Shown one piece after another: positions 2,461 to 45,912 of a stretch of DNA of 64,000 nt (the stretch's first letter is position 1; every line of letters begins with the position of its first letter). This stretch comes from Myxococcus xanthus (lineage in GTDB: Bacteria > Myxococcota > Myxococcia > Myxococcales > Myxococcaceae), in assembly GCF_006402735.1 (NCBI RefSeq), contig NZ_CP017174.1:6304001-6368000 (forward strand), given 5' to 3'. Under the pieces are notes generated by a model. That model did not search any database, had not been told where the DNA came from, and saw only the letters and a program-made list of their open reading frames with translations. A program made the translations under genes and the position numbers.

Positions 2461-4068
2461 TCAGGCCAGCGCGGCGGAAATCGAGGCAGGCTGCGCCACG
2501 GGTAATTCCAACGTCAACGCCGCGCCCCCCAGGGCTTCCGAGCGTCCCGCACTCAAACGTCCGCCATGCCGTTCGGCGATGCCTCGCGCGATGGCCAGCC
2601 CCAATCCCGTCCCCGGCCGAGGTCCCTCGCGCTTGCGGCCCGTCACGAAGGGCTGGAAGAGCCGGGGCAACAGCTCCGGTGGAATGCCAGGCCCGCTGTC
2701 CTCCACCCGGACGAGCAACCGGCCGTTCGCCTGCTCAATGGATGTCCTCAACCGCGGTGCGGGCACGTCTCTCAGGGCGAGCAGTGCATTCTCCAACAGG
2801 ATGACCATCACCTGTGAGAGCTGGGACTGATCGGCCTCCACCGTGAGCGACGCGTCCTCCTCTGACTCGAAGGAGACGTCGGGCGCGAGCGAGCCCAGTC
2901 CCTGCCGCGCGGTGGAGTACGCCAGCGCGACGGTGGCTGAGACATCCACGCGGCGCAGGTCCAGCGGGCGCGGGCGACCGTAGCGCAGCAGCTCGTCCAC
3001 GAAGTGACTGGCGCGGTCAATCTGCTCCCGCATGGCCGCCACCGTGTCCGGGTCCCCGCCCCTTCGCTCCAGCAGCTTGAGGTGCGCGGCGAGCACGCCC
3101 AACGGATTGCGGACCTCGTGGGCCACCGCGGACGTGAATTGCCCCAGCTCCGCCAGCCGCGCGGCTTGGTCCGCGCGCGCCTCCTCGCGAGCGAGCGCCA
3201 CGGCCAGCTCGTCACTGGTGGCGCGGCCCTTGAGGAGCCGGCGCCCCAGCCAGGCCTGAAGCGCCTGACGCACGGGCTCGAACGCGAGCGCGGCCAGGGC
3301 CAGGAGAAAGAAGGCACCTACGCGGTACTCGGTGAGGAACGGCTGGCCGCTGCCCGACAGCAGCGTCAATACGCCAAAGAGGAAGCCCGCGGACAACACC
3401 GCCGCCACCGCGGAGTAGACGAGGCTGCGTTCAAGCAGCCGTCGGTCCGCGGCTGGCTGATGGGCATTGATGACGTGCACCAGCACCAGCAGCGCCGCCA
3501 GCACCAGGTACATTCCGAACGGCAACGCGTACCCGCCTGACAGCAACAGGGCGTTGCCGATACTGCCCAGGTACGCGAGCAGCCCGGCGATGCCCAGGCT
3601 GAGGAGAATGGGCCGTCGCTCGGGAGCTTCGCCGCGGTACGCGCGCGACAGATGAACCAGCGGCACGCTCGCCGCCGCCACGGCGAGCACCATGGTGGGC
3701 CAGAACAGGGGACCTCGCCCCATCGCCAGCGGCCCGTGCAGGACGTTGGGGAGGAACGCGCCAATGCCCGTCACCACCACCGCCACGCCGTACGCGAGCA
3801 CCACCAACCGGTAGGAGCGCTGCCGGGTCACGTCATAGGCGGAGTGCAGGTATGCCGCCGCGACGAAGGCCCCACCCGCAACGAAGCGCTCCCCCACCCA
3901 CGCCATGGACGGGATGCAGAGGAGCAGCAGCGCGCCCGTCCACCCCGCGGTCGCCAGACAGTAGAGCGCCAGGCCTCGTGCGTTGTGCCCCCGGAGCGCG
4001 GCCGTGAAGAACAGCAGCAGCGACACGGAGAGGACAGGCACGAGGCTGTAGGCGAACAAGGGCCCCAT
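2461..4068 (-). CDS. Sensor histidine kinase with multi-span membrane N-terminus
   Basis: A 535-residue protein. The first 265 residues or so form about seven or eight hydrophobic helices with no recognisable periplasmic domain. The kinase core follows: an H-box around AVAHEVRNPLG (phospho-acceptor His317), an N-box (LLENALLAL), a G1 box (DSGPGIP), an F-box (FQPFVTG) and a G2 box (GTGLGLA). It should autophosphorylate in response to a membrane or lipid-phase signal. No response regulator gene is adjacent, so this is an orphan kinase, common in myxobacteria. It ends 140 bases upstream of the sigma factor start on the same strand; co-transcription is possible but not shown. Confidence 0.88.
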   Translation of the reverse strand: MGPLFAYSLVPVLSVSLLLFFTAALRGHNARGLALYCLATAGWTGALLLLCIPSMAWVGERFVAGGAFVAAAYLHSAYDVTRQRSYRLVVLAYGVAVVVTGIGAFLPNVLHGPLAMGRGPLFWPTMVLAVAAASVPLVHLSRAYRGEAPERRPILLSLGIAGLLAYLGSIGNALLLSGGYALPFGMYLVLAALLVLVHVINAHQPAADRRLLERSLVYSAVAAVLSAGFLFGVLTLLSGSGQPFLTEYRVGAFFLLALAALAFEPVRQALQAWLGRRLLKGRATSDELAVALAREEARADQAARLAELGQFTSAVAHEVRNPLGVLAAHLKLLERRGGDPDTVAAMREQIDRASHFVDELLRYGRPRPLDLRRVDVSATVALAYSTARQGLGSLAPDVSFESEEDASLTVEADQSQLSQVMVILLENALLALRDVPAPRLRTSIEQANGRLLVRVEDSGPGIPPELLPRLFQPFVTGRKREGPRPGTGLGLAIARGIAERHGGRLSAGRSEALGGAALTLELPVAQPASISAALA

Positions 4069-4085
4069 GCCCGTACTGTGACAGA

Positions 4086-4958
4086 TCAGCGAGCGCCGTG
4101 AGGCGGACTCGCCGCCAAGGTATGGGCGGTGATGGCCCGGGTCATCGTCTCCCAGTCATCCGGGTGCAGGTCATGCCCCGCGTCCTGCAGTGTCACCAGG
4201 CGCGCGCCCTTGACGGCACGGCTCAAGGCCACGCCATGCGCATGGTCGATGACCGGGTCCACAGAGCCGTGGATGACCAGCAGCGGCGCTTCAATCTCAC
4301 GAGTCCGGCCGTACCACTCCAGGCCACCGGACAGCCCCGCGTGGTTCAATGCACATTGAGGCGCGAGCGCGCGCCGGTAGTCCTGGACTGCTCGCGCCCG
4401 CACCCGGGCCTCGTCGAACGACCTCCGCGCACGGCCCACGCACAACCGTGAGAGTTCGACCTGGAAGCCGATGGCCTCCGCCTCGTCGGCCCAGTTCAGC
4501 GTGGCGGCCCGCTGGAAGTGCGCGAGCACCGCCGGGTCCATGCCCGGGTCCTCGAAGTCCGGCTCCGAGAAAATCTGGGCGCTGATGAGCGTCAGCGAGC
4601 GGACTCGCTCCGGGTACGTCAACGCCGCCATCTGGCAGAGCAGGCCCCCCAATGACATTCCCACGAGGTGCGCGCGCTCGATGCCATATCCATCCAGCAC
4701 GGAGATGGCATCGGAGGCGAGGTCGTCCAGCGTGTAGGGCGTGGCGCCTGGCACACCGTGCGAGGAGCGCCCCGTGTCGCGGTGGTCGTAGCGGATGACG
4801 AAGTGACCCGTCCGCGCGAGCTGCTCCATGAGCCCGTCGGGCCACCCCAGCATCGAGCTGGCCGCCCCCATCAACATCAGCACGGGGGCGTCGCCCTCGC
4901 GTCCGAAGTGCTCGGTGCAGAGCCGAATGTCGCCCGATTCGATGATGCGCTCGGACAT
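4086..4958 (-). CDS. Alpha/beta-fold hydrolase under probable TetR control
   Basis: A 290-residue soluble alpha/beta hydrolase. The nucleophile elbow is GMSLGG with Ser102; the acid is probably the Asp in HGSVDPV and the base the His in DAGHDLHP. The oxyanion region MLMGAASS and the RYDHRDTG motif resemble the aclacinomycin methylesterase/RdmC-like group, but the substrate cannot be read from sequence. There is an AAAGGGG ribosome binding site before the ATG. The promoter 45-70 bases upstream has a perfect palindrome filling its spacer (see that entry), so the gene is probably repressed by the TetR protein encoded just upstream. Confidence 0.85.
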   Translation of the reverse strand: MSERIIESGDIRLCTEHFGREGDAPVLMLMGAASSMLGWPDGLMEQLARTGHFVIRYDHRDTGRSSHGVPGATPYTLDDLASDAISVLDGYGIERAHLVGMSLGGLLCQMAALTYPERVRSLTLISAQIFSEPDFEDPGMDPAVLAHFQRAATLNWADEAEAIGFQVELSRLCVGRARRSFDEARVRARAVQDYRRALAPQCALNHAGLSGGLEWYGRTREIEAPLLVIHGSVDPVIDHAHGVALSRAVKGARLVTLQDAGHDLHPDDWETMTRAITAHTLAASPPHGAR

Positions 4959-5002
4959 CCAGGAACCCCTTTCGACGGCCAGGAACTGGCGTGGATGACG
5001 AG

Positions 5003-5031
5003 TTAATAACCGACGCGTCGGTTATATTCAA
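5003..5031 (-). promoter_or_regulatory. Sigma-70-type promoter with TetR operator palindrome in its spacer
   Basis: On the minus strand there is TTGAAT (5031-5026), exactly 17 bases, then TATTAA (5008-5003). The spacer lies within a perfect 20-base palindrome at 5006-5025, ATAACCGACGCGTCGGTTAT. Palindromes of the ACCGAC-GTCGGT kind are typical of TetR operators, and a TetR gene ends 39 bases away. A repressor bound here would cover both promoter elements of the hydrolase gene that starts at 4958. The palindrome is seen directly; the pairing with this TetR is inference. Confidence 0.75.
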
Positions 5032-32997: not shown

Positions 32998-34077
32998 TCA
33001 GGTTAGAGCGTCGACCCAGGTCCGCAGCCGGGGAGCCACCTGAGCCTCGCCACGCACGCCGGGTTCGGCATCCAGGAGGAGCGTGTGGAAGCCTCGGGCT
33101 TCCAATCCCTTGCACATCTCCGCCCGAACCTGGGCATCCGGCGCGAACAGGATGCAGCCGTCGCCACCGCCCGCCCCGGACAGCTTGCCCGCCGCACCGT
33201 AGGTCGCGGCCAGTGCCAGCACCCGGCGCATGCCTTCCGTCTCAAGCGGCCCCAGCTCCAACAGCAGCGCGTGCTGCGCCTTCACGGCCTCCGCGAAGGC
33301 CCGGAAGTCTCCGCCGCTCAGCCCATCCTCAATCGCATGGCCCAGTGTGTCCGAGCGCGCCACGAAGCTCCGGCGGCCTGACTCCTCCAGACGCGCTTCC
33401 ACCTGGCCAATCAACACCCGCGTCGAGGCGCTCTCGCCGGTGAAGGCATACGCCATGGACACCCGAGGCGAAGGCAGCCGCCACACGTCCACCGACGGCG
33501 ACTCTGCCAGCGCCGCGCGCAGTCGCCCGGCGTTGCTCGCCTCAATCAGCGGCGCCACGTCGTAGCGCCGGTAGCGCAGCACGCCTCCGGCGAAGCTCGT
33601 CGCCACGTCCCCGCCACTGCCCTTGCCGCCCTGCCCCAGCGTGTGCGCCAGCAGCGCCAGCTTCAGCGCGTCGTAACGCTCCTCCAGCACATAGCGCGCG
33701 CCTTCCGCCGCCAGCACCGTCGCGCACGCACTGCCGCCCATGCCCAGCTTCTGCCCGTTCGGGCCCACCGCGGACGGCGCCACCGCCAGGTCGAAACCCT
33801 GACTCGCGCGGCCATGTGCCCGCAGCGCCTCGTCCAGCGCCCGCGCAACGAAGGCGAACCCCGCCGGGACTTCACGCTCCCAGCGCACCCCCAGCGGCGT
33901 GGTGCTCCCCGCCAGCGTCCCCTCTTCCAGGCACACGTGCACGCGGGCATCCGCGCGGCGGCGGACATACGCGGCGGTGCGTGGCGCCACCGCGGCCAGG
34001 CGCGCCACGCCGCCCCACAGCACGGCGTACTCCCCGGAGAGGAACAGCTTGCCCGGCGCGGAGAGGGCGCGCTCCAT
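32998..34077 (-). CDS. Phosphomevalonate kinase-like GHMP kinase
   Basis: A 359-residue GHMP-family kinase and last gene of the mevalonate operon. It has the N-terminal APGKLFLSGEYAVLWGG segment, the ATP loop KLGMGGSACAT and the C-terminal motif KLSGAGGGDGCILF. With mevalonate kinase and diphosphomevalonate decarboxylase already encoded upstream, this one most likely phosphorylates 5-phosphomevalonate to the diphosphate. Its ATG shares one base with the end of the mvaD gene. The assignment within the GHMP family rests on context and on the GEYAVL(W) start typical of phosphomevalonate kinases. Confidence 0.82.
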   Translation of the reverse strand: MERALSAPGKLFLSGEYAVLWGGVARLAAVAPRTAAYVRRRADARVHVCLEEGTLAGSTTPLGVRWEREVPAGFAFVARALDEALRAHGRASQGFDLAVAPSAVGPNGQKLGMGGSACATVLAAEGARYVLEERYDALKLALLAHTLGQGGKGSGGDVATSFAGGVLRYRRYDVAPLIEASNAGRLRAALAESPSVDVWRLPSPRVSMAYAFTGESASTRVLIGQVEARLEESGRRSFVARSDTLGHAIEDGLSGGDFRAFAEAVKAQHALLLELGPLETEGMRRVLALAATYGAAGKLSGAGGGDGCILFAPDAQVRAEMCKGLEARGFHTLLLDAEPGVRGEAQVAPRLRTWVDALT

Positions 34078-35075
34078 CAGAAGAGGTGCTCCGCCTTCAG
34101 CTCCGCGTCACCACCGGGCACGCAGCGAATCACATCCACCGCGCCGCACGCGCGGGCCAACGCCTCCGCGGCCACCTCGTGCGCGGCGTCCGTCAGCAGC
34201 ACCGGGTTCGGCCCCGCGTCCAGCGTGAACCACACCGGGATGCCCTTCTTGCGCTGCTCCTTCAGGTGCTGGATGAGCGCCAGCGTGCCAGGGCTCATGT
34301 AGCTCAGCGGCGGATTCGCGGCGAAGGACGTCGCGTGCATCCGCCACGCGTTCCGCTCACACAGCTCACCCAGGGCCTGCAGGTCACGCCGGGCGATGTG
34401 CTCGCGCACCTGGACCACCTCCGCCTCCGCGTCCTTCACCCACGCCGGGTAGTACGGGCTGGTGTCCACCGTGTGCTTCATCCCGTCCCGCGACTTCACC
34501 TCTTTCTCGCCGCGGTCGAGAATCGCCACCACCATGCGAACGTCCGGCCAGTGGGCCGCGTCGAAGCGCTGCACCGCGAAGCTGTCCTCACCATCCGGAC
34601 GCTCGCCGCGCTGCCACTCGCAGAACCCACCCTGCACGCTCCGACACGCCGAGCCGCTGCCCATGCGCGCCAGGATGCTCGCCGCGCGTGGCTCCGCGGG
34701 CAGACCCGCCGCAGCGCGCCCCGCCACCGCCAACGCCGCGAAGCCCGCCGCGCTGCTGGCCAACCCGGCCGCCATGGGGAAGTCCCCGCGCGACACCACC
34801 TTCGCGGGGCCCAGGTCGGCCTTCGCCTGGGCACGCACCAACTCCAGCAGCCGCAACACGCGGTCGCGCTCGCTGCCCTTCGCGGTGTGCCCGTTGAGCT
34901 CCACCTGGTCGCTCGCGGCGCCGAACTCCACCGTGGTCGTCACCGACAACGGCGACAGCGTGAGGGACAGGCTGGACTGGTGCGGAAGAATCAGCGCGTC
35001 GTCCCGCTTCCCCCAGTACTTCACCAGGGCGATGTTGGGATGCGCCAGAGCTGTGGCTTTCATGGGAAGACTCAC
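34077..35075 (-). CDS. mvaD: Diphosphomevalonate decarboxylase
   Basis: A 332-residue enzyme that converts mevalonate 5-diphosphate to isopentenyl diphosphate with ATP. Hallmarks are AHPNIALVKYWGKRD at the N-terminus, the phosphate loop PMAAGLASSAAGFAAL, MGSGSACRSVQGGF, and the Asp-containing FTLDAGPNP near the C-terminus. The GTG at 35075 overlaps the upstream stop (GTGA); an ATG four codons later is an alternative start. Confidence 0.93.
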   Translation of the reverse strand: MSLPMKATALAHPNIALVKYWGKRDDALILPHQSSLSLTLSPLSVTTTVEFGAASDQVELNGHTAKGSERDRVLRLLELVRAQAKADLGPAKVVSRGDFPMAAGLASSAAGFAALAVAGRAAAGLPAEPRAASILARMGSGSACRSVQGGFCEWQRGERPDGEDSFAVQRFDAAHWPDVRMVVAILDRGEKEVKSRDGMKHTVDTSPYYPAWVKDAEAEVVQVREHIARRDLQALGELCERNAWRMHATSFAANPPLSYMSPGTLALIQHLKEQRKKGIPVWFTLDAGPNPVLLTDAAHEVAAEALARACGAVDVIRCVPGGDAELKAEHLF

Positions 35076-36004
35076 GACGCCCGCGGACCCGCGAGCTGGC
35101 TGCTGAAGCAGCGCACGCCCATCCGGGTGAGCTTCGTCACCACGGGCTTGGGCTCCAGGAACAGGCCAATGACGGCCCCACCATCTCCACCGGCCCCGGT
35201 CAGCTTGGCACCCAGCGCCCCCAGCTCCCGCAACCGGTAGATCATCTCTTCCAACTGCGGCGACGACAGGCCTAGCGCAGCGAGCAGGCCCTGGTTGACG
35301 TTCATCGCGTCGCCCAGTGCCTCCAAATCTCCCGCCGCCACCGCCTTCGCGCCCTCCGAGGACACCCGTCCAATCTCCGTGAACAGGCGCTCGTAGCGCG
35401 ACGGCCAGCGAGCCTGCCGCTCCCGCAGCGCGCCCACCGTCTTCTTCGTGGGGCTGCGCTCACCCGCGAGCGTCACCACCACGTGCAAGGGCTTGGGGCA
35501 CTCCACCACCTGCCCCGTCCCCTTGGCGGCCCCCGGCTTGCGCCGATAGAGGACCAGCTGCTCCGCCGCGCTCGTGGTGTGGTCCACCCCGGACGGCGTG
35601 CCGTGGAACTCCTGCTCCATCGCCCACGCCACGCGCGCCGCGTCCTTCGGCGTGGCCACCTTCCCCGCCGCCTGGAGAAGCAACCGCGCGCACGCCACCG
35701 ACAGCGCCGCCGAGCTTCCCAAGCCCACCGCCAGCGGCAGGTCCGCCTCCAGCGACACCTTCACCGGCGGCGCGCCCGTCACCGCCGCTGCACGGGCGAA
35801 CGCCGCCGTGAGCTGCGCCCGCTGCGGGCGGCTGAGCGTGGAGGGCAACGCGAGTTGACACGCCTTCGCGGGCACGGCGCGCGCCGTCACGCCCTGCGAC
35901 AACGGACCGGCCAGGGCCGGGTGCCCATACACGACGCTGTGCTCACCCAACAGGATGACCTTGCCGGCGCCAAAGGCCGACCAGGATTCAGGACGAGGAG
36001 CCAC
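35072..36004 (-). CDS. mvaK1: Mevalonate kinase
   Basis: A 310-residue GHMP kinase. It has the mevalonate-kinase start GAGKVILLGEHSVVYG, the ATP loop PLAVGLGSSAALS, the catalytic-Asp region GTPSGVDHTTS and the final KLTGAGGDGGAVIGL. It phosphorylates mevalonate. I chose GTG 36004, four bases after the mvaA stop. An in-frame ATG at 36040 would add 12 residues overlapping mvaA and has no better ribosome binding site, so the start is uncertain. Confidence 0.9.
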   Translation of the reverse strand: MAPRPESWSAFGAGKVILLGEHSVVYGHPALAGPLSQGVTARAVPAKACQLALPSTLSRPQRAQLTAAFARAAAVTGAPPVKVSLEADLPLAVGLGSSAALSVACARLLLQAAGKVATPKDAARVAWAMEQEFHGTPSGVDHTTSAAEQLVLYRRKPGAAKGTGQVVECPKPLHVVVTLAGERSPTKKTVGALRERQARWPSRYERLFTEIGRVSSEGAKAVAAGDLEALGDAMNVNQGLLAALGLSSPQLEEMIYRLRELGALGAKLTGAGGDGGAVIGLFLEPKPVVTKLTRMGVRCFSSQLAGPRAS

Positions 36005-36008
36005 GGCG

Positions 36009-37337
36009 TCAGACCGTGGTGCCGGTCGCGGCCGCGGCATCCTCGGCGGGGAGGCTGGCCAGGAGCTCGCGGGCCTTCTCCACCTTCACGTGGCCCGCCT
36101 TCACCAGCAGGTTGGCGATCTTCTCCACCCAGTCGCCCCGCGCGCCCGCCGTCACCGCCACGCAGCGCGCGTGCATCGCCATGTGGCCCTTCTGGATGCC
36201 CACGCTGCCCAGCGCCCGGAGCGCCGCGAAGTTCTGCGCCAGGCCCACCGCCGCGAACACCATGGCGAGCTCTCGCACCGACGTGGTCTGCATCAGCTTG
36301 AGCGCCATCTGCACGCCCGGGTGGATCTTGATGGGCCCGCCCACCGTCCCCAGCGCCATGGGCAGCTCGATGCGGCCCACCAGGTGGCCCTCTTCCAGGT
36401 ACCAGGTGGACAGCGGCCGGTACTGCCCATTGCGGCAGGCGAACGCGTGCGCGCCCGCTTCAATGGCGCGCCAGTCCTGCCCCGTGGCGATGGCCACCGC
36501 GTCAATGCCGTTCATCACACCCTTGTTGTGCGTGGCCGCGCGGTACGGGTCCGCCTCCGCGAAGCGGCTTGCCTGGGCGATGCCCTCGGCGATCTCCTCG
36601 GCCGGCATCTCAAAGTCCGCCAGCAGCGGGATGGGGATACGGCACATGGCGCGCGCCAGACGGCGGTCCGCCAGGTTGGAGAGGATGCGTAGGTACACCT
36701 TGCCGTCGGTGATCTGCTCGATGAGCGGCGCCACGCCCTCCGCCATGGTGTTGATGAGGTTGGCCCCCATCGCCTCCTGGGCGTCGATGATGAGGTGGAC
36801 GATGAGCAACGGCTCGCCGCGCGGTCCCTCGGGGGCCGGCAGCACGCGAACCTCGACGTCCTTCGCCCCGCCGCCACGCGCCACCATGGCCGGGTGGAAG
36901 CTGTTGGCCAGCGCGAGAATCTGCTCCTTGTGCTCCAGGATGCGCTCGGTGGCCACCGTCGGGTCGCCGTAGCGCGACACCTGCACCTGGCCAATCATCA
37001 GCGACGGGTCGGCCTCGCCGATGAACCCGCCCGACTCCCGGACGATCTTCGCCGCGAAGGACACCGCCGCCACGACGGACGGCTCCTCCACCGCCATGGG
37101 CACCAGGTAGTCCCGCCCGTTGACCTGGAGGTTGAGGCCCAGGCCCAGCGGCAGGGAGAACGTCCCCACCGCGTTCTCAATCATCTGGTTCGCCAGGACA
37201 GGCTGGAGCGCCTCCGAGCCCAGCAGCTGCTGCAGGTCCTCGGGCGTGAGCCGGAACATGCGGGAGAGGTGCGCGTGGCGCTCCTCCATCGGCAGCTTGT
37301 GGAACCCGGGAAGCCGGGACGTCACGGTGTCAGACAT
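36009..37337 (-). CDS. mvaA: Hydroxymethylglutaryl-CoA reductase, class II
   Basis: A 442-residue class II HMG-CoA reductase. Substrate and cofactor motifs are ENAVGTFSLPLGLG, DAQEAMGANLINT (the class II form of the Asp-Met-Gly segment), THNKGVMNGIDAVAIATGQD with the catalytic Lys, and the catalytic His in KGHMAMHAR. There are no membrane helices, as expected for bacterial enzymes. The reaction is between HMG-CoA and mevalonate; operon context indicates the biosynthetic direction. The ATG at 37337 has GGAAGGAAG upstream. Confidence 0.93.
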   Translation of the reverse strand: MSDTVTSRLPGFHKLPMEERHAHLSRMFRLTPEDLQQLLGSEALQPVLANQMIENAVGTFSLPLGLGLNLQVNGRDYLVPMAVEEPSVVAAVSFAAKIVRESGGFIGEADPSLMIGQVQVSRYGDPTVATERILEHKEQILALANSFHPAMVARGGGAKDVEVRVLPAPEGPRGEPLLIVHLIIDAQEAMGANLINTMAEGVAPLIEQITDGKVYLRILSNLADRRLARAMCRIPIPLLADFEMPAEEIAEGIAQASRFAEADPYRAATHNKGVMNGIDAVAIATGQDWRAIEAGAHAFACRNGQYRPLSTWYLEEGHLVGRIELPMALGTVGGPIKIHPGVQMALKLMQTTSVRELAMVFAAVGLAQNFAALRALGSVGIQKGHMAMHARCVAVTAGARGDWVEKIANLLVKAGHVKVEKARELLASLPAEDAAAATGTTV

Positions 37338-37370
37338 GTTCTTCCTTCCAGACTTCGGCGCGGCCACCCT

Positions 37371-38429
37371 CTACAGCGCCGCCAACCAATCCTTCAACTC
37401 TCCGGTGACCACTCGGGGCCGCTGTCTCAGTTCAGCGCAGCTTCTGCTACCCGTCAGGACGAGCGCCTGCCGCAGGCTGGCCAGGATGACCTCCAGCGCC
37501 GCCTCCGCCGCCTCGAGGCCGCCCGCCTGCTGCGCGCGGAACAACGGCAGCGCCATGCCTGCCAGGTTCGCGCCCAGCGCCAGCACCTTGGCGGCATCCA
37601 GTCCCGTGCGGAGGCCGCCGCTCGCCACCAGGTGGACGTCCGGGCCCACGGCACGGCGCACGGTGGCCAACGCGGCCGCCGTGGGAATGCCCCACGCGCT
37701 GAATTCCGCTCCCAGCTGTGCCTGTACGCCCGACGCGCGAAGTTGTTCCACGCGCACCCAGGACGTCCCGCCAAGGCCGGACACGTCGATGTTCCGCACG
37801 CCCAGGTCCACCAGCCGCCGCGCGACGTCCGGGCCGATGCCGCAGCCCGTCTCCTTCACCAGCAGCCGGTCGCCAAAGGCCCTCACCAGCAGCTCCACCA
37901 CGCGGTAGCCGCCCTGGAAGTCCCGGTCGCCTTCCGGCTGCGTCAGCTCCTGGCCCGCGTTGAGGTGCAGCGCCAGCCCGTCCGCGCCAATGCCGTCCAC
38001 CAGCCGGCGCGTTCCATCCACGCCCAGCCGGATGGCCTGGAACATGCCGATGTTGCCCAGCAGCGCCACCGTGGGCGCCACCTGCCGCACCTGGAAGGAC
38101 GCGGCCCGCGAGGCGTCCTCCGACATGGCGCGCTGGCTGCCCACACCGAAGGCCAGGCCGTGGCGCTCGGCGAGCAGCGCCAGGTCGCGATTCACCGCGC
38201 CCGCACGCTCCGTCCCACCCGTCATGCCGGTGACGAGCAGCGGGTAGCGCAGCCGCTTGCCCAGGAACGCCGTGGACAGGTCCACGTCCTCCACGGACAT
38301 CTCCGGCATCGCGCAGTGGACCAGCTTGACGCACTCCAGCAGGGTGCTGTTTCCGCTGGGTTCGACGTCGCCCGTCGCGCAAAGGTCGAGATGCGCGTCC
38401 TTGCGTCTGGCTGTGATGTCGTCGCCCAT
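37371..38429 (-). CDS. fni: Type 2 isopentenyl-diphosphate delta-isomerase (FMN-dependent)
   Basis: A 352-residue TIM-barrel flavoprotein. It has the type 2 signature: RKDAHLDLC near the start, LLVTGMTGGTERA, FGVGSQRAM, LHLNAGQELTQPEGDRDF and VKETGCGIG, with the flavin phosphate segment ASGGLRTGLDAAK. It interconverts isopentenyl and dimethylallyl diphosphate. The ATG at 38429 matches the family N-terminus. First gene of the mevalonate operon; the next gene starts 33 bases downstream. Confidence 0.92.
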   Translation of the reverse strand: MGDDITARRKDAHLDLCATGDVEPSGNSTLLECVKLVHCAMPEMSVEDVDLSTAFLGKRLRYPLLVTGMTGGTERAGAVNRDLALLAERHGLAFGVGSQRAMSEDASRAASFQVRQVAPTVALLGNIGMFQAIRLGVDGTRRLVDGIGADGLALHLNAGQELTQPEGDRDFQGGYRVVELLVRAFGDRLLVKETGCGIGPDVARRLVDLGVRNIDVSGLGGTSWVRVEQLRASGVQAQLGAEFSAWGIPTAAALATVRRAVGPDVHLVASGGLRTGLDAAKVLALGANLAGMALPLFRAQQAGGLEAAEAALEVILASLRQALVLTGSRSCAELRQRPRVVTGELKDWLAAL

Positions 38430-38590
38430 CTCGATGAAGTCCGGTCCGCCCAGGTGCCACGGCGCGTAAGTGCCCGAATGACCGGGGTTTCCTAGCAAGC
38501 ACGGCGGCCAAGGCGCAAGCCAAAGGGCCCGGGCGGTCAGTCTCGGCGTGTGGGTGGACGCTGGCGCCTTGTGGGCGGTATGAGCGCCGC

Positions 38591-39031: not shown

Positions 39032-41434
39032 TCAGATGGACAGCTTGGCGCCCAGGATGATGGTCCGGGGCGCGTTGGGCCGGGCTCCGTAGGGGCGGCG
39101 CGACACGATGACCTGCTCGTCCAGGATGTTGCGCGCGCTCAGGTACAACTGCCCCCAGCGAGAGAAGTTCCAGTTCGCGTTGACGTCGAACGTCAGCAGC
39201 GCGCCCGTCAGCTCGCCTGGAGGTGCCTCGCCCTGCCCCGCCCGCTCGCGCATGGCATCCACGTAGAAAGCGCTCAGTGCCAGGCCGCCCCAGGACGACT
39301 CCACGCCCGCGGTGGCGTAGATCTGGTGCCGCGGAACGTAGGGCAGTTCGTCTCCCGCTCGCACGTTGCCGAACTGCGGGTCCGCGGACTGGAAGTCCTC
39401 GCGCAGCCGCGTGCGGGTGAAGGTGTACGCCAGCGAGACGGGGAACGTCAGGCCGCCACCCGGACGGAAGGTCTTCTCGCCGAAGATCTCCAGGCCATAG
39501 ATGAACGCCTTGCCCGCATCCGTCTGCCGGTCGAGGTCGTCATTGAGGCATCCGCTGGAGAACGTGCAGATGTCGGTGAGGTTCGAGTAGTCGTTGAAGA
39601 AGCCCAAGGCCTCGAAACGCTCTCCGCGGCGTGTCCACCGCGCGCCGCCCTCGTAGTTGATGCTCTTCTCCGGAAGCACCGCGGAGGGCTGTCCGGGCGC
39701 GGGGGGCGAGAAGCCGCGATAGGCGCCCGCGAACAGGCCCAACTCTCGCGTCAACGCACCGTAGACACCCATGCCCGGCATGAGCACTTCCAGCGCGCCG
39801 CTCGACGCTGTCCCCACCAGCCGGTTCACGGAGTTGGAACGGATGATCTCCAGGCGGACACCCGGCGTCAGCACCAGGGGCCCCCACGCAATGGCGTCCG
39901 TCGCGTGCAGGGCAACGGCGTGCGTGGAGTCCCTGTTGTTGGCCGTCGTGTACGTGGGCTCGTTGGTACGCACGAGCTGGCCGCCCTGCATGAGGTAGGC
40001 ATCCTCGGTGTGAAGGCGGTCGATGCTGTCGTAGTGGAAGCGGGCGCCGAGCTCGACGTTGTGACTCAGCGGCCCCGTGACGGCGGACCACCGGGCAATG
40101 CTCTGGAGGCCCTGAGACACGAACGTCCGATCATTGGGACCGATGAGCAGCGCGTCCTGGGTCGACGACGTGTCGACCGTTCCGGTAAGCACGCCGTAGT
40201 AGATGGAGTTGCGCGCGCTCGTCGGGTCCGCGAGCACGCTGGCGATGGATGCGCCCCGAAAGCGGTTCACCTTCCTCCAGGCCCGGCTCAGGTCATGCCG
40301 GTAGACGGATGTCGTCACCGCCAGCCCGCCGGCCTCGAGTTCGTGGCTCAGAACGACCTGAGTGCGGTGCCACTTCATGTGGTCCAGGGCGCTCGCGATG
40401 TAGCGCCGCAGCGGCGCAGCGGCGAAGTCCGCGTCGCTCAAGCCCAGGTACGTCTCGTTGGCGTCCTCGTCGGAGTAGCCCAGCTTGACCTGGAGCGTCT
40501 GGCGGACGGGCCCCTCGGGAACGAGCAGGTAGCGGCCCTTGGCCATCCACTCGTTGCGGGTGAAGCCCGTGTTACCGCCCACGGTGTCCAGTTCCTTGAA
40601 GCCGTCACTGCGCAGGTGGAGACCTTCCAGCAGGAAGCCCGCACGCTCGGTGCTCGCGCCGAAGACGCCATGGACCTTGCCGTAGAGGTACCCGCCCCCC
40701 GCCACGTCCAGCCAGATGGACTCCGCCGCGGGGATGTCTCGGGTGAGGAAATCCACGGAGCCGCCCACCGTCTGCGGTCCCTGCTGGATGGCCGAAGGGC
40801 CCTTGAGTACGCGGATGCTCTGCATGCGCGTGGCCAGCGGGAAGTAATAGGCCGCCGGCGCGGAGTACGGCGCGGGGCCGAAGAGGATGCCGTCCTCGAG
40901 CAGGGTGACCTTCTTGCTGCGGTCCGGATTGACGCCGCGCAGGCCCACGTTCGGCCGCAAGCCGAAGCCGTCCTCGCCTCGTGCATACACACCGGGAACC
41001 GTCTGGAGGATGGCCGCCGGGTCATCGCGCTCGAAACGCTCGAGCTGCGCGGGCTTCAGCACGTGGATGGAGCCGCTGGTGCGCGCCTCCGACGTACCCA
41101 CCACCACGCTCTCGAACTTCTTCTCGACGGCCTCGGGCGCAGGCTCCAGGACGAGCGGCTCGCTCGCGGGAACTTCGGAGGCCAGCGGCGCGTCGCCCAT
41201 GAGGGACGGCTCGGGCTGTGCCAACGGCTCGGCCGGAGGCGACTCGGGAGCGGCGGCGGTGTCCGGTGCCAGGGGCGGCTCGGGTGCCACCTGCTCCCGC
41301 GACGGCTCGGGGACCACGGCGGCGGCGTCCTGGGGCGGCTCGGACTGCGCCGCGGCCGGGGAGGCCCATGCCAGCAAGAGCGCCGGAAGTGTCCAGCTCC
41401 GCGCCCACATCAGCTTCTGCTCGAACAGTGCCAT
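39032..41434 (-). CDS. TonB-dependent outer membrane receptor, probable iron-chelate uptake
   Basis: An 800-residue receptor. The signal peptide ends near ASPAAAQ. A Pro/Glu/Ala-rich spacer follows, then a plug domain at about residues 105-240 with KPAQLERF, VGLRGVNPDRSKKVTLLEDGI and a Gly-rich QTVGGSVDFLT. The C-terminal beta-barrel ends in LGAKLSI with an aromatic-poor last strand. The plug resembles ferric-dicitrate/FecA-like receptors, so ferric chelate is the likely cargo. A start at ATG 41410 is also possible. It lies downstream of the delta-60 lipoprotein gene, and the divergent control region has Fur-like boxes. Confidence 0.87.
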   Translation of the reverse strand: MALFEQKLMWARSWTLPALLLAWASPAAAQSEPPQDAAAVVPEPSREQVAPEPPLAPDTAAAPESPPAEPLAQPEPSLMGDAPLASEVPASEPLVLEPAPEAVEKKFESVVVGTSEARTSGSIHVLKPAQLERFERDDPAAILQTVPGVYARGEDGFGLRPNVGLRGVNPDRSKKVTLLEDGILFGPAPYSAPAAYYFPLATRMQSIRVLKGPSAIQQGPQTVGGSVDFLTRDIPAAESIWLDVAGGGYLYGKVHGVFGASTERAGFLLEGLHLRSDGFKELDTVGGNTGFTRNEWMAKGRYLLVPEGPVRQTLQVKLGYSDEDANETYLGLSDADFAAAPLRRYIASALDHMKWHRTQVVLSHELEAGGLAVTTSVYRHDLSRAWRKVNRFRGASIASVLADPTSARNSIYYGVLTGTVDTSSTQDALLIGPNDRTFVSQGLQSIARWSAVTGPLSHNVELGARFHYDSIDRLHTEDAYLMQGGQLVRTNEPTYTTANNRDSTHAVALHATDAIAWGPLVLTPGVRLEIIRSNSVNRLVGTASSGALEVLMPGMGVYGALTRELGLFAGAYRGFSPPAPGQPSAVLPEKSINYEGGARWTRRGERFEALGFFNDYSNLTDICTFSSGCLNDDLDRQTDAGKAFIYGLEIFGEKTFRPGGGLTFPVSLAYTFTRTRLREDFQSADPQFGNVRAGDELPYVPRHQIYATAGVESSWGGLALSAFYVDAMRERAGQGEAPPGELTGALLTFDVNANWNFSRWGQLYLSARNILDEQVIVSRRPYGARPNAPRTIILGAKLSI

Positions 41435-41559: not shown

Positions 41560-43038
41560 CTACTGCTTCTCGATAGGACCGCCGATGACGATCTTTCCAT
41601 CCGTCTGGATGGCGATGCCGCGAGCGGACTCCTCGGTGGCCGCGGTCGCGACGTTGATCTTCGCGATGCCGCCGGTGCCGAAGGTCGGGTCGAGGTTGCC
41701 ATCGGTGGTGAATCGCGCCACCACCATCTGGTTGTCGCCACCCTCGGTCACGAAGCCCGCCGCGTAGATGCGGTTGGTCGCGTCGAAGGCAACGGACCAG
41801 AAGCGGTCGTTCTCCGTGGCGGAGATCGGCGTGGCCTTGATGATGACCTCCTCCGCCGTGCCGTTCGTCGGGATGATGGCCAGGATGCCGTCGTCGTTCC
41901 CGCTGCCGCCGGCGCGGTAACCCACCGCGGCCGCCCAGTTGCCGTCCGCCGACTTGGCCACGCCGAAGAAGGCCTGCTCCGGGCGCTCCAAGCCGTAGGT
42001 CTTGTAGCCTTCCGGCGCGAAGGTCGTGTCCGGCTGGCCGTCCGGCGTCTGCATCAGGAGGAGGGCCTGGATGTTCTGCGCGCTCGGCGTGCCGCTGCCC
42101 ACGTGCAGGACGCGGTCGTCGTTCAGGACCACCAGGTTGCGGCCACGGTCATTGTCACCGGCCAGGTCCAGCACCACGGAGCCACCCGTGCCCCACGTCG
42201 GGTCGAGCGCGCCCGTGGCGGTGTAGCGGAAGGACACCAGGTCCACCGTGCCGGAGGACGCGGAGCGGCCGTAGCCGGTCGTCACGTAGCTGCCGTTGGA
42301 CTGCATACCCGCGGCGTAGGCCTCGGCCATGCCCCACTCGGGGTTGGTCTCGCTCTGGGCCTGGAACGGCGCGGACGTCACGACGCCCTTCCAGCCGAAG
42401 GCATCGTCCGCCTTGCCGTTGTCGTTCAGGCGCTGCAGCACGATGCGGTTGGCCGCCTGCGCACCCACGCCCGTGGGCATGGACGTGTAGCCGGACGTCA
42501 TGATCTTCCCGTCCGGCTGGATGAAGCCGTAGCGCATGCCGTCGTTCAGGTTGGACAGGTTGAGGACGCTGAACCCGTTGGGCGTCCCGGCTGAGCCGAA
42601 CGTCGTGTCCAGCGCGCCCGTCGCCGTCAGGCGGGCCACCACGCGGTCGGTGTCCGCACGCGTGCCGTCCCCGCGCTTGTTGCCGAACAGCACGATGCGG
42701 TCCGTGGCGTCCACGCGCACGTCCCACAGCGAGTCACGCGTGCCGTCGCGGCCGGTGCCGAAGTCCACGTGCGTGATGCCGCCCGCACCGAACGTCGTGT
42801 CGTGCGTACCGTCCTCGTTGAAGCGGACCACCGCGATGTCGCTGTCCAGCGCGCCGGTGCCCGCGTCGGGCGTCGGGTTCGTGCCCGCGTCCGTACCAGC
42901 GTCCGTGTTGGTGCCCGCGTCAGGCGTCGGGGTCGGCGTGGGCTCGTCGTCGTCGCCACAACCCGTCATGCACGCCAGCGTGAGCGCCAGCGCGGCTCCA
43001 CGCACCAGGAAGCTGCGGTGCTTCACCGTCTTCAACAT
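41560..43038 (-). CDS. Delta-60 repeat lipoprotein
   Basis: A 492-residue lipoprotein; signal peptide and lipobox CMTGCGDD, then a low-complexity linker of Thr/Pro/Asp/Ala (PTPTPDAGT units). The rest is made of repeats of about 55-60 residues with the delta-60 pattern: VVARLTATGALDTTFGSAGT, IVLFGNKRG, VVARFTTDGNLDPTFGTGG and IAIQTDGKIVIGG. Such repeats fold as a beta-propeller on the cell surface or in the periplasm. The ATG at 43038 has GGGGAAG upstream. It is the first gene of the Fur-boxed minus-strand unit and may bind substrate or a partner for the TonB receptor that follows. Confidence 0.85.
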   Translation of the reverse strand: MLKTVKHRSFLVRGAALALTLACMTGCGDDDEPTPTPTPDAGTNTDAGTDAGTNPTPDAGTGALDSDIAVVRFNEDGTHDTTFGAGGITHVDFGTGRDGTRDSLWDVRVDATDRIVLFGNKRGDGTRADTDRVVARLTATGALDTTFGSAGTPNGFSVLNLSNLNDGMRYGFIQPDGKIMTSGYTSMPTGVGAQAANRIVLQRLNDNGKADDAFGWKGVVTSAPFQAQSETNPEWGMAEAYAAGMQSNGSYVTTGYGRSASSGTVDLVSFRYTATGALDPTWGTGGSVVLDLAGDNDRGRNLVVLNDDRVLHVGSGTPSAQNIQALLLMQTPDGQPDTTFAPEGYKTYGLERPEQAFFGVAKSADGNWAAAVGYRAGGSGNDDGILAIIPTNGTAEEVIIKATPISATENDRFWSVAFDATNRIYAAGFVTEGGDNQMVVARFTTDGNLDPTFGTGGIAKINVATAATEESARGIAIQTDGKIVIGGPIEKQ

Positions 43039-43071
43039 GATGTCTTCCCCTCCTCGGGATTTCGTCGAACT

Positions 43072-43090
43072 GCAAACGATAATCGTTATC
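43072..43090 (-). promoter_or_regulatory. Fur-box-like site upstream of delta-60 lipoprotein gene
   Basis: The 19 bases GCAAACGATAATCGTTATC match the Fur consensus GATAATGATAATCATTATC at 15 of 19 positions by direct comparison. The site is 34 bases upstream of the lipoprotein start. A repressor here would make the lipoprotein/TonB receptor unit iron-repressed. Confidence 0.75.
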
Positions 43091-43180
43091 AGTTTCTTCG
43101 CGTCCGCCTCGTACTCCGGAAGACCGCGACCGGTCAACAGCCAACCTGTGGGAACCCACACGTTTCTCCGGGCAAACTTT

Positions 43181-43199
43181 GAAGTTGATTGTCATTAAC
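43181..43199 (+). promoter_or_regulatory. Second Fur-box-like site, upstream of imelysin gene
   Basis: GAAGTTGATTGTCATTAAC matches the Fur consensus at 13 of 19 positions. It lies 27 bases upstream of the imelysin ATG at 43227, where it would cover the promoter or start region. Weaker than the first site but in the expected place. Confidence 0.55.
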
Positions 43200-43226
43200 A
43201 ACATCGGCGTGTTAGCGAGCCCGGCC

Positions 43227-44465
43227 ATGAACACCGAGTCATCGCGCCCCCTCTACGTCCTGCGTGCGCGCGCCATCGCGCTCGCGGTGCCCGCCCTCCT
43301 CTCGCTGTCCGCGTGCAAGTCGGACAAGGTGACTCCGGCGGACGCCGGCACGGACAATCCCGACAACACGGTGGCCGCGACGCGCGCCGCGCTGCTGGAG
43401 GCATCCGGAGCTTGTGTGCTGCAGACGGCACGTGAGTTCCAGACGGTGGCCACCGCGATGGAGAGCGCTGTCGCGGCCCACGCCGCCACGCCGGATGCCA
43501 CCACGCGAGACGCCGCGCGCGCGGCCTACCACCAGGCCATGGACGCGTGGCAGGTGGCGGAGGTGATGCAGTTCGGTCCCGCCGCGCCCCGCAGCCTCCC
43601 GGGCGGCGCGGAGATTCGTGACAACATCTACTCGTGGCCCCTGGTCAGCCGGTGTGCCATCGAGGAGCAGATCGTCAACCGCGGCTACGAGTCGGCGAGC
43701 TTCGACAGCTCGCTGGTGAGCCGCCGCGGCCTGTACGCGCTGGAGTACCTGCTCTTCTTCGAGGGCAACGACACCGCCTGCCCCGGCACCTCCGTCATCG
43801 TGTCCCAGGGCACGTGGGCGGCGCTGTCCGCGGACGAGCGGGCCGCGCGCAAGCGGGCGTACGCCGCAGTGGTGGCCGCCGACGTCCACCGCCGCGCGGA
43901 CGCGCTGGTGAACGCGTGGGCCCCGGACGGGCAGAATTTCAGCAGGACGCTGACGACGGCGGGCTCCGGCAATGCCGTGTATCCCTCCACGCAAGCTGCG
44001 CTGAACTCCGTGAGCGACGCCATCTTCTATTTCGAGCGCGAGGTGAAGGACCTCAAGGTGGCACGGCCGCTGGCGCTGCGTGACTGCTCCACGTCGACGT
44101 GCCCCGAACACCTGGAGTCACAGTTCGCCGCGCGCTCGAAGGCGAACATCCGGGCCAACCTGGTGGGCTACCGGCGCATGACGGAAGGCTGTGGCGAGAA
44201 CTTCTCCGGCACGGGCTTCGACGACCTGCTCGAGGCGTCGGGCGCCGACGCGCTGGCGGCGAAGCTGCGCGAGCGCAACGCGGCGGCGGCGGCGGGCATC
44301 GACGCCGTTCCAGGTGAAGACCTGGCGGCGGTCCTAGCTCAGGACAAGGCCTCGATGCGTACAATGTACGACGCCATCAAGGGCGTGACGGACGTGCTCA
44401 AGACGGAGCTCGTCACCGTTCTGGACCTGGAGCTGCCCCAGTCCGTCGAGGGGGACAATGACTGA
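43227..44465 (+). CDS. Imelysin-family (M75-like, iron-regulated) lipoprotein
   Basis: A 412-residue lipoprotein with signal peptide and lipobox SLSACKSD (Cys30). The body is helical with the imelysin layout: an early FQTVATAMESAV helix, an AWQVAEVMQFGP helix, then RRGLYALEYLLFFEG (residues 166-180) and a second half-repeat. The family's GxHxxE metal-site motif appears here as GLYALE, so Tyr170 replaces the His. Imelysin proteins (IrpA, EfeO-like) are tied to iron uptake. The ATG at 43227 is preferred over an upstream one at 43179 that would run through the Fur box. The last 8 bases overlap the next gene. Confidence 0.85.
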   Translation: MNTESSRPLYVLRARAIALAVPALLSLSACKSDKVTPADAGTDNPDNTVAATRAALLEASGACVLQTAREFQTVATAMESAVAAHAATPDATTRDAARAAYHQAMDAWQVAEVMQFGPAAPRSLPGGAEIRDNIYSWPLVSRCAIEEQIVNRGYESASFDSSLVSRRGLYALEYLLFFEGNDTACPGTSVIVSQGTWAALSADERAARKRAYAAVVAADVHRRADALVNAWAPDGQNFSRTLTTAGSGNAVYPSTQAALNSVSDAIFYFEREVKDLKVARPLALRDCSTSTCPEHLESQFAARSKANIRANLVGYRRMTEGCGENFSGTGFDDLLEASGADALAAKLRERNAAAAAGIDAVPGEDLAAVLAQDKASMRTMYDAIKGVTDVLKTELVTVLDLELPQSVEGDND

Positions 44466-45912
44466 GGTGGCGTCCGGCAAGCGCCCCGCGTCCGGGCGCC
44501 TCTGGCAGGTGCTGCTGGCGCCGCGAGACATCGCGGCGCTGGTGGCGTTCCGCGTGGCGCTCGGACTGCTCATCTTCGTATCGGCGGTCCGGTTCCTCGC
44601 CTACGGCTGGGTGGACGTGCTGTTCACCGGCCCCCGCTTCCACTTCACCTACTGGGGCTTCGGCTGGGTGCCCGCGCTGCCGGCGCCGTGGATGCACGCC
44701 GTCTTCGGGGTGCTCGCGGTGCTCGGGCTCTGCATGGCGGTTGGCCTTTTCTACCGCGTGACGGTGGGCCTGCTGTTCGTCGCCTTCACCTACGTCCAGC
44801 TCGTGGACGTCAGCAACTACCTCAATCACTACTACCTGGTGAGCCTGCTCCTCGGGCTGATGCTCCTCGTGCCGGCGCACCGGGCCTTCTCGGTGGATGC
44901 CTGGCGCAAGCCCGCGCTGCGCAGTGACTGGCTGCCCTCGTGGTGCACGCTCCTGCTGCGATTCCAGGTGGGGGTGGTGTACGTCTTCGCGGGGCTGGCG
45001 AAGCTGACCGGTGACTGGCTGCTCCATGCCCAGCCCCTCAGCATCTGGCTGTCGGCTCGGACGAGCCTCCCTCTCGTCGGCCCCATGCTCGACGAGCCCT
45101 GGGTCGCCTACGTCGCGGCCTGGTCGGGATTCCTCTTCGACACCACCATCGTCGCCTTCCTCCTCACCCGGAAGCTGCGGCCCTTCGCCTATGTGGTGGT
45201 GCTCGGGTTCCACGCGGCCACCTCCGCGCTGTTCCCCATTGGCATGTTCCCCGTCATCATGGTCACCGGGGCCCTGGTCTTCTTCGAAGCCTCCTGGCCA
45301 CGGCGGCTGTTCCGCGGACTGCGCGCCCGCCTTGCCCGGTCGTCCGTCGCGAAATCGGCCGCCCCTGCAATGCCCGCGACGCTGGCCCTGAGCGCTCCCG
45401 GCTGGATGGGACAGGTGGCGCTCGGACTGGCCCTGACCTACGCCGTCGTGCAAATCGCCGTGCCCCTCCGCACACACCTCTACGGTGGCAACGTCCTGTG
45501 GCACGAACAGGGCATGCGCTTCTCGTGGCGGGTGATGGCGCGCGAGAAGAACGGCAGCGTGACGTTCATCGTCCGCGACCCGGCGTCGGACCGGGAGTGG
45601 CACGTCGCGCCCAGCCAGTACCTCACCCGCCTCCAGGAGCGGGAGATGTCGGTGCAGCCGGACCTCATCCTCCAGTTGGCGCGGCATATCGCCCGGGACT
45701 TCGAGGCGCAGGGCAAGGGGCCGGTGCAGGTTCACGCCGAAGCGCACGTGTCCCTCAACGGGCGTCCCGCGGAGCTACTGGTGGACCCCGACGTGGACCT
45801 CGCCCGGGAGGTGGACAACCTCGCGCCCAAGCGGTGGATTCGCCCCGCCCCGGAGTCACCGCCCATCCGCTTGCGCTCTCCGCTGCGCAGCGCGACGGCC
45901 GAGCGCCCCTAG
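44458..45912 (+). CDS. HTTM/vitamin K-dependent gamma-carboxylase-like membrane protein
   Basis: A 484-residue protein with an HTTM membrane domain (residues 20-340) and a C-terminal soluble beta domain. By recall, it aligns along its length with human gamma-glutamyl carboxylase: YLNHYYL (His124), the catalytic-Lys region YVFAGLAKLTGDW (Lys182, matching Lys218 of GGCX), GFHAATSALFPIGMF (His252), a WHEQGMRFSWRVM segment and the closing VDPDVDLAREV. The human His381 equivalent appears to be Arg362. GGCX uses vitamin K hydroquinone, O2 and CO2 to make gamma-carboxyglutamate. The ATG at 44458 lies inside the imelysin gene, so translation is coupled. Confidence 0.85.
   Translation: MTEVASGKRPASGRLWQVLLAPRDIAALVAFRVALGLLIFVSAVRFLAYGWVDVLFTGPRFHFTYWGFGWVPALPAPWMHAVFGVLAVLGLCMAVGLFYRVTVGLLFVAFTYVQLVDVSNYLNHYYLVSLLLGLMLLVPAHRAFSVDAWRKPALRSDWLPSWCTLLLRFQVGVVYVFAGLAKLTGDWLLHAQPLSIWLSARTSLPLVGPMLDEPWVAYVAAWSGFLFDTTIVAFLLTRKLRPFAYVVVLGFHAATSALFPIGMFPVIMVTGALVFFEASWPRRLFRGLRARLARSSVAKSAAPAMPATLALSAPGWMGQVALGLALTYAVVQIAVPLRTHLYGGNVLWHEQGMRFSWRVMAREKNGSVTFIVRDPASDREWHVAPSQYLTRLQEREMSVQPDLILQLARHIARDFEAQGKGPVQVHAEAHVSLNGRPAELLVDPDVDLAREVDNLAPKRWIRPAPESPPIRLRSPLRSATAERP

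Follow-up and report, generated by a model that had tools for sequence, protein, structure and literature searches.

Within a 64,000-nucleotide stretch of the Myxococcus xanthus genome (assembly GCF_006402735.1, contig NZ_CP017174.1, positions 6,304,001 to 6,368,000; hereafter the window, whose source genome is a single contig of 9.3 Mb), we identified a gene of the vitamin K-dependent carboxylase family (VKGC, represented in animals by GGCX), here called P0001, coupled to an upstream imelysin gene, P0002. The imelysin-VKGC operon recurs widely across phyla and has its own VKGC clade. This recurring pairing, which reaches beyond the coordinates of P0001 itself, is our main finding; the absence from P0001 of a histidine equivalent to His381 of GGCX, a point raised in the initial annotation, carries low weight. 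The elements concerned are, in window coordinates:

43227-44465, forward strand: P0002, an imelysin (M75) lipoprotein, its ATG start inferred inside a TTG-initiated frame listed from 43179
44448-44462, forward strand: codons of the acidic C-terminal tail EGDND of P0002, conserved in this imelysin type and predicted to be disordered
44458-45912, forward strand: P0001, a VKGC-family integral membrane protein of 484 residues with an ATG start

The TGA stop of P0002 overlaps the ATG of P0001 (ATGACTGA). We compared the window with the best 80 of 572 confirmed loci, giving a set of 81 that is biased toward relatives of P0001 and in which the closest named homologue is that of Myxococcus vastator (L055; VKGC 93% identical). 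In 75 of these 81 loci, the end of an imelysin open reading frame (ORF) lies no more than 400 bp ahead of the VKGC domain. The six exceptions comprise three loci cut by a contig end (L066, L084, and L120), one whose imelysin lies 2.2 kb upstream (L080), and two lacking an imelysin (L097 and L110). Other envelope genes are also common near VKGC: in 49 of the 81 loci the next same-strand ORF after VKGC encodes a TonB receptor, 65 loci have such a receptor ORF at a distance of up to 8 kb, and 50 have a DUF4856-like ORF within that distance.

Genome samples from individual phyla gave a similar picture. Among 195 Myxococcota genomes, the VKGC lumenal domain (PF22777) was detected in 72 and the imelysin domain (PF09375) in 91; a same-strand imelysin lies within 2 kb upstream of 65 of the 88 VKGC matches and at 2.0-2.1 kb from 4 more. 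The linked pair is present in 65 of the 72 VKGC-bearing genomes and in 23 of 25 genera, and in the window's genus it occurs in all 23 genomes with a VKGC. Among 148 Bacteroidota genomes, PF22777 was found in 36 and PF09375 in 37, with linkage at 30 of 40 VKGC matches. By a rough estimate, chance would place an imelysin adjacent to about 0.0006 of VKGC genes. The open-licence literature gave no match for HTTM together with imelysin and one for imelysin together with vitamin K-dependent gamma-carboxylase; among the papers listed there was, beyond a table in a study of Riemerella, no description of an imelysin-VKGC operon, though one may be in print elsewhere. In three Bacteroidota contigs (G251:C18, G307:C8, and G329:C5), the match to the VKGC lumenal domain is interrupted by a single in-frame stop, which may reflect decay, recoding, or errors.

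P0001 belongs to the VKGC/GGCX family with near certainty. It contains an HTTM domain (PF05090, residues 22-280, 266.6 bits against a cut-off of 27.7, 3.3e-79) followed by a VKGC lumenal domain (PF22777, residues 320-465, 153.4 bits against a cut-off of 27.7, 5.9e-45), and in a phmmer search of PDB sequences its residues 14-464 match human GGCX (3.5e-34), with 119 of 445 aligned residues identical (27%). An AlphaFold2 model built from 48 sequences from the window and the loci reached a mean predicted local distance difference test score (pLDDT) of 92.9 and a predicted template modelling score of 0.90. VIA-align placed residues 9-472 of this model on residues 41-517 of a GGCX-MGP chain (9wfc; Z 33.6, 440 residues aligned, root-mean-square deviation 3.0). 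All 16 GGCX rows scored Z of at least 22.5, against 8.2 for the best non-GGCX chains, and Foldseek also recovered GGCX (3.6e-22). The alignment with GGCX over membrane and soluble parts that the initial annotation had described is thus borne out by phmmer, Pfam, and fold, and the structural overlay it had suggested agrees at the level of the aligned ranges. The overlays stop at GGCX residues 508-527, so that the shared region comprises the membrane domain plus the initial portion of the lumenal part. P0001 is therefore not an animal-type GGCX in the narrow sense, lacking His381 as well as the complete propeptide clamp and the arch, which in GGCX extend past about residue 527.

The known catalytic residues of GGCX (numbered here by the full-length 758-residue chain) are retained. 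In the phmmer alignment, Lys182 of P0001 corresponds to the catalytic base Lys218, Asn123-His124 to Asn159-His160 of the Glu site, and His252 to His287, so that the three pairings proposed at the outset for Lys182, His124, and His252 stand. The initial annotation had further placed Arg362 where His381 is expected. There is indeed no histidine at that position, but the residue is Thr339 (human ..LPYSHFL.., P0001 ..VPLRTHL.., with a His following at 340), since Arg362 aligns with His404. The other replacements are Lys217 by Ala181, Tyr379 by Leu337, Tyr395 by Met353, Met401 by Val359, and Asn290 by Thr. According to the accessible parts of one structural study, the quinone head in menaquinol-bound GGCX sits among F286, F294, F299, H160, V210, M401, and W223, with K218 touching the quinone and N159, H160, and Y395 holding the Glu side chain; a distinct network of structural character is made up of K217 (which is not catalytic), Y379, and S398, and H404 belongs to a network linking the cap and the propeptide-binding domain (PMC12589487). 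Six of the seven quinone-head residues are identical in P0001, the exception being M401. H381 is not mentioned in the accessible parts of that study, and the open-licence literature gave no match for H381 together with GGCX.

The same residues were compared in an alignment of 148 rows, comprising human GGCX and 147 distinct bacterial VKGC sequences taken from 160 loci with at least 330 residues after removal of identical rows. The bacterial rows are mostly relatives of P0001 (Myxococcota and the best 80 loci), with distant VKGC sparsely represented. All 147 bacterial rows carry the human residue at N159, H160, K218, W223, F286, and F299; H287 is kept in 146, V210 in 143, and F294 in 141. The H381 column is variable, its seven commonest bacterial states being H (43), T (37), F (28), Y (21), A (7), S (5), and C (2), and so the loss of His381 says little about chemistry. 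A retained Lys with a lost His381 is an ordinary state in the VKGC family and is not peculiar to P0001.

Conservation of the quinone pocket argues against a related enzyme with another cofactor, one of two possibilities raised by the initial annotation and one that finds no support here. More broadly, we consider it highly improbable that P0001 is a catalytically changed relative using another cofactor, or a non-enzymatic membrane chaperone for imelysin. The replacement of H381, K217, and Y379 by T339, A181, and L337 would suit such a protein; however, the catalytic Lys and the quinone-pocket residues are invariant across the 147 rows and several phyla, and the K217 column, structural rather than catalytic in the accessible account of GGCX (PMC12589487), is Ala in 137 of the 147 bacterial rows. 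Judging from these residues, menaquinol/O2 chemistry is likely retained in P0001. The source genome encodes a menB homologue (396.9 bits against a curated cut-off of 342.7) and gave no match for the futalosine menaquinone route (PF02621). Its one VKOR domain is in frame with DsbA/thioredoxin-type domains and may serve disulphide formation rather than quinone epoxide recycling.

A quick maximum-likelihood tree of the 148 rows, with support from the Shimodaira-Hasegawa-like approximate likelihood ratio test only, human GGCX on a long branch, and imelysin-linkage labels assigned by hand, groups 131 rows on one branch (support 99), including all 118 labelled as imelysin-linked. The others in this clade are seven rows at contig edges, five labelled as other, and one with an imelysin about 2 kb away. 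Relative to human GGCX, N290 is replaced by T in 126 of the 131 rows and M401 by V in 129, and the Y395 column holds M (56), Y (50), or F (24). The 16 bacterial rows outside the clade, none of them labelled imelysin-linked, share the invariant core of P0001 and resemble human GGCX at N290 and M401 (16 of 16) and mostly at H381 (13 of 16), with His at position 395 in 15 of 16. Six of them (L175, L177, L178, L179, L181, and L182) form a Bacteroidota clade located between genes read as ribF and serS. Mapping residue states on a tree, as had been suggested earlier, recovered a clade with its own pocket residues, and the loss of H381 is not special to P0001 within it. On these aligned states, the clade of P0001 has its own version of the pocket wall, with an H381 position that is free to vary as a clade trait.

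These substitutions bear on the second possibility raised initially, a true carboxylase with altered chemistry. Family membership and the catalytic Lys agree with it, and the clade changes at N290, M401, and Y395 leave room for altered chemistry or an altered substrate. In one form of this alternative, which we regard as rather unlikely although a real competitor, P0001 would keep menaquinol oxidation and the strong base without carboxylating Glu, acting instead on another group (Asp, a small chelator, or a lipid) or mainly as an epoxidase. Changes at the pocket wall and tail tunnel around an invariant Lys/His/Asn core, the altered Glu-binding Y395, and an imelysin with no diagnostic Glu are consistent with this view. 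In addition, a Leptospira VKGC homologue, likened to P0001 as a bacterial VKGC by description only, was reportedly found by Rishavy et al. in 2005 to have epoxidase activity without carboxylation of Glu peptides. Against it, the Glu-holding residues N159 and H160 of GGCX show no variation, and the highest Z scores of the model are to substrate-bound GGCX chains (33.6, versus 27.5 and below for apo chains).

The partner protein P0002 matches the imelysin profile (PF09375, 115.9 bits against a cut-off of 23.5, 3.4e-33). It has GLYALE in place of the GxHxxE motif of ICMP/IrpA and, with no His in this motif, is read as the IPPA-like GxxxxE type, following the types in the accessible parts of PMC3143127. 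Like P0002, the IPPA/PA4372 family is of the GxxxxE type, and such imelysins carry an acidic tail at the C-terminus; unlike P0002, IPPA in Pseudomonadota is paired with an ICMP-type imelysin and has no VKGC. In the AlphaFold model of P0002 (pLDDT 88.4), tail residues 424-428 have pLDDT below 50 and are predicted to be disordered, and the last six residues of IPPA are likewise disordered (PMC3143127, whose accessible text has no match for DGD, acidic, or tail). Imelysins adjoining VKGC are likewise read as IPPA-like, and most have a C-terminal tail of the form DNDGD or GDND, with the final Asp kept in all 73 aligned linked imelysins (L059 and L074 having been dropped for damage or shortness).

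We considered and rejected the acidic tail as a VKGC-specific tag. All 16 second imelysins from Pseudomonadota genomes without PF22777 (L227-L242, read as PA4372/IPPA type) end in DGD; among the other four imelysins of this comparison, L243 and L246 end in DND, and L244 and L245 (65 and 28 bits) have no such ending. Four genomes of the window's genus have no PF22777 match, and two imelysins from such genomes (L158 and L159) lack the tail. Since the tail is present in genomes without PF22777, it belongs to the imelysin type, and it could still be a VKGC substrate. Strongly conserved acidic tails ending in DGD or DND, predicted to be disordered, occur on imelysins of this type in several phyla. 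In one Myxococcota locus with a tailed imelysin (L165, G027), a fatty-acid-hydroxylase-type membrane protein (PF04116, 4.7e-24; 3941-5005, reverse strand) begins where VKGC would; in this single case it is a possible VKGC replacement. At L173 (G012:C36), inspection by eye revealed M48-protease-like and coiled-coil-like genes as in the window, with a tailed imelysin and no adjacent VKGC; the same genome has another imelysin-VKGC pair elsewhere.

Evidence for iron control comes from the divergent promoter upstream of P0002 and the genes on its other side:

43072-43096, strand not assigned: Fur-box-like sequence, two overlapping 19-mers each matching 15 of 19 positions of GATAATGATAATCATTATC, joint best in the 64 kb
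43181-43205, strand not assigned: a further Fur-box-like sequence, scoring 14 and 13 of 19, a short way before the imelysin ATG
41560-43038, reverse strand: divergent DUF5122/delta-60-repeat protein; the ATG at 43038 is the inferred start
39032-41434, reverse strand: TonB-dependent receptor, detected with a profile of receptors adjoining VKGC in other phyla

The scan used the 19-bp Fur consensus, GATAATGATAATCATTATC. The four best scores in the window (15, 15, 14, and 13 of 19) all fall at 43072-43205, and when 43051-43226 was shuffled 5000 times with its dinucleotides preserved, a score of 15 was never reached. Each of the seven nearest loci (L055-L061) has Fur-like sites with scores of at least 15, located some 0.9-1.3 kb ahead of the VKGC frame. 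Elsewhere the pattern is mixed, and in AT-rich genomes the sites are dispersed and uninformative. The window receptor, which lies behind the delta-60-repeat gene, has weak matches to FecA-type and siderophore-receptor models, below curated cut-offs. In Riemerella anatipestifer, the accessible tables of PMC5609570 list a TonB receptor, VKGC, imelysin, and hypothetical protein (RAYM_09779-09794, tags five apart) among Fur-regulated genes, up on iron limitation and fur deletion; the likeness to the window rests on these table entries, and the accessible parts of the paper contain no functional proposal for them. For the Riemerella VKGC, expression ratios were 2.64 (wild type, without versus with iron), 2.77 (fur mutant, without versus with iron), and 1.39 (fur mutant versus wild type, with iron), the third of the four columns being blank for this gene (PMC5609570). 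The imelysin-VKGC operon is probably iron-regulated.

Because of the imelysin overlap, the Fur-box-like promoter, and the recurring imelysin-VKGC(-TonB receptor) operon, we consider a role for P0001 in iron uptake very likely. In its full form, the reading of P0001 as an inner-membrane menaquinol-dependent carboxylase-type enzyme that serves iron import, perhaps by modifying imelysin, has in our judgement an even chance of being correct. Under iron starvation, Fur would release the promoter. P0001 would then draw menaquinol from the membrane, Lys182 would deprotonate it, and reaction with O2 would yield a strong base and menaquinone epoxide. This base would deprotonate an acidic side chain on a partner in the periplasm, and CO2 would add there, leaving an extra carboxylate. 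The coupled imelysin would be the likeliest partner, and the modification would tighten a metal site used in iron capture or in hand-over with the TonB receptor. That P0001 has a protein substrate at all is somewhat favoured by us; that imelysin is this substrate is plausible but less than even. We hypothesize, as a speculative extension that is more doubtful still, that a bacterial menaquinol-driven VKGC carboxylates acidic residues to create high-affinity metal sites on a periplasmic imelysin (modifying the disordered Asp tail or another acidic site), a form of vitamin K-dependent iron capture, and that the animal clotting-factor carboxylase emerged from this system or alongside it.

Alternatively, P0001 might carboxylate the TonB receptor, a DUF4856-like protein, or another envelope protein in place of imelysin, which we regard as distinctly unlikely. 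The frequency of TonB receptor and DUF4856-like ORFs within 8 kb of VKGC would favour such a substrate, as would a Glu-rich N-terminal extension of the window's TonB receptor. However, imelysin adjacency is the tightest of these associations. The Glu-rich N-terminus was itself set aside as a candidate: it was seen in three myxobacterial receptors and is not evident in Bacteroidota ones among the 45 of 68 rows listed.

Several observations weigh against a carboxylase that serves iron import through imelysin. The linkage is incomplete, as 19 of 88 Myxococcota VKGC matches, some at contig ends, and 10 of 40 in Bacteroidota have no imelysin within 6 kb upstream. The latter ten include the six of the ribF-serS type, one at a contig end that is immediately preceded by an imelysin fragment (L180), one whose genome carries a tailed imelysin at another place (L176/L186), and two with other neighbours (L183 and L184). 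On the tree, the imelysin label requires 12 changes rather than one, because contig-edge and other rows are scattered inside the large clade; shuffled labels needed 27.6 on average and were as low in 0 of 500 trials. Conversely, tailed imelysins persist in four Myxococcota genomes without a PF22777 match (L162-L165), and among 249 Pseudomonadota genomes PF09375 occurs in 60 and PF22777 in only 2. Many Pseudomonadota lack menaquinone, and the rarity of VKGC there would fit a need for this cofactor. Within P0001, the Glu-site residue Y395 of GGCX is Met353, and the rest of the propeptide clamp and arch (GGCX beyond about 508-527) has no counterpart, so that substrate recognition must differ from that of GGCX. 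P0002 has no Glu-dense, Gla-like stretch (at most 5 Glu per 45 residues), and a comparison of 73 linked with 22 unlinked imelysin rows revealed no Glu or Asp column convincingly conserved only in the linked set. The nearest columns, E162 (acidic fraction 0.77 linked versus 0.27 unlinked) and D349 (0.85 versus 0.36), are both confounded with phylum; E424 (0.85 versus 0.05) is located in the tail, where 18 of the 22 unlinked rows had been chosen for a DGD or DND ending and tail columns are no independent evidence. As for regulation, 9 of 80 loci have no Fur-like site scoring 13 or more, and the iron response of the Riemerella VKGC persists in the fur mutant, with only the 1.39 rise on fur deletion in iron-rich medium (PMC5609570, accessible tables). 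Another iron signal may therefore act, and Fur is maybe not the sole regulator.

Two sets of neighbouring genes deserve mention. Upstream of some unlinked VKGC genes are non-imelysin proteins (L142 6131-7120, L143 6364-7113, and L137 2965-6966) with Asp-rich tails (SDSDSD, GGSDFD) or many GGHDDDDDGHG-like repeats, which as candidate Asp-rich substrates are suggestive but few; neighbours examined at other unlinked VKGC genes (e.g. L135 and L144) have no Asp-rich tail. In the window, a mevalonate-pathway cluster lies near the operon (32998-38498, reverse strand), encoding GHMP kinases, diphosphomevalonate decarboxylase, HMG-CoA reductase, and a flavin mononucleotide-dependent protein read as a type 2 isopentenyl diphosphate isomerase.

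VKGC homologues were recognised in bacteria some two decades ago, but to our knowledge there is no consensus on what they do. The imelysin-VKGC-TonB receptor operon, Fur-type control, and a clade-specific pocket tie a large bacterial branch of this family to iron uptake, and the recurring operon names a partner protein, imelysin, for bacterial VKGC. Among the explanations considered, we rate highest, and propose, the carboxylation of imelysin or another envelope partner. Should there be a carboxylated partner, it would represent a novel kind of protein modification in bacteria, and menaquinone would gain a new role; if there is none, the system would define what else VKGC chemistry can do.

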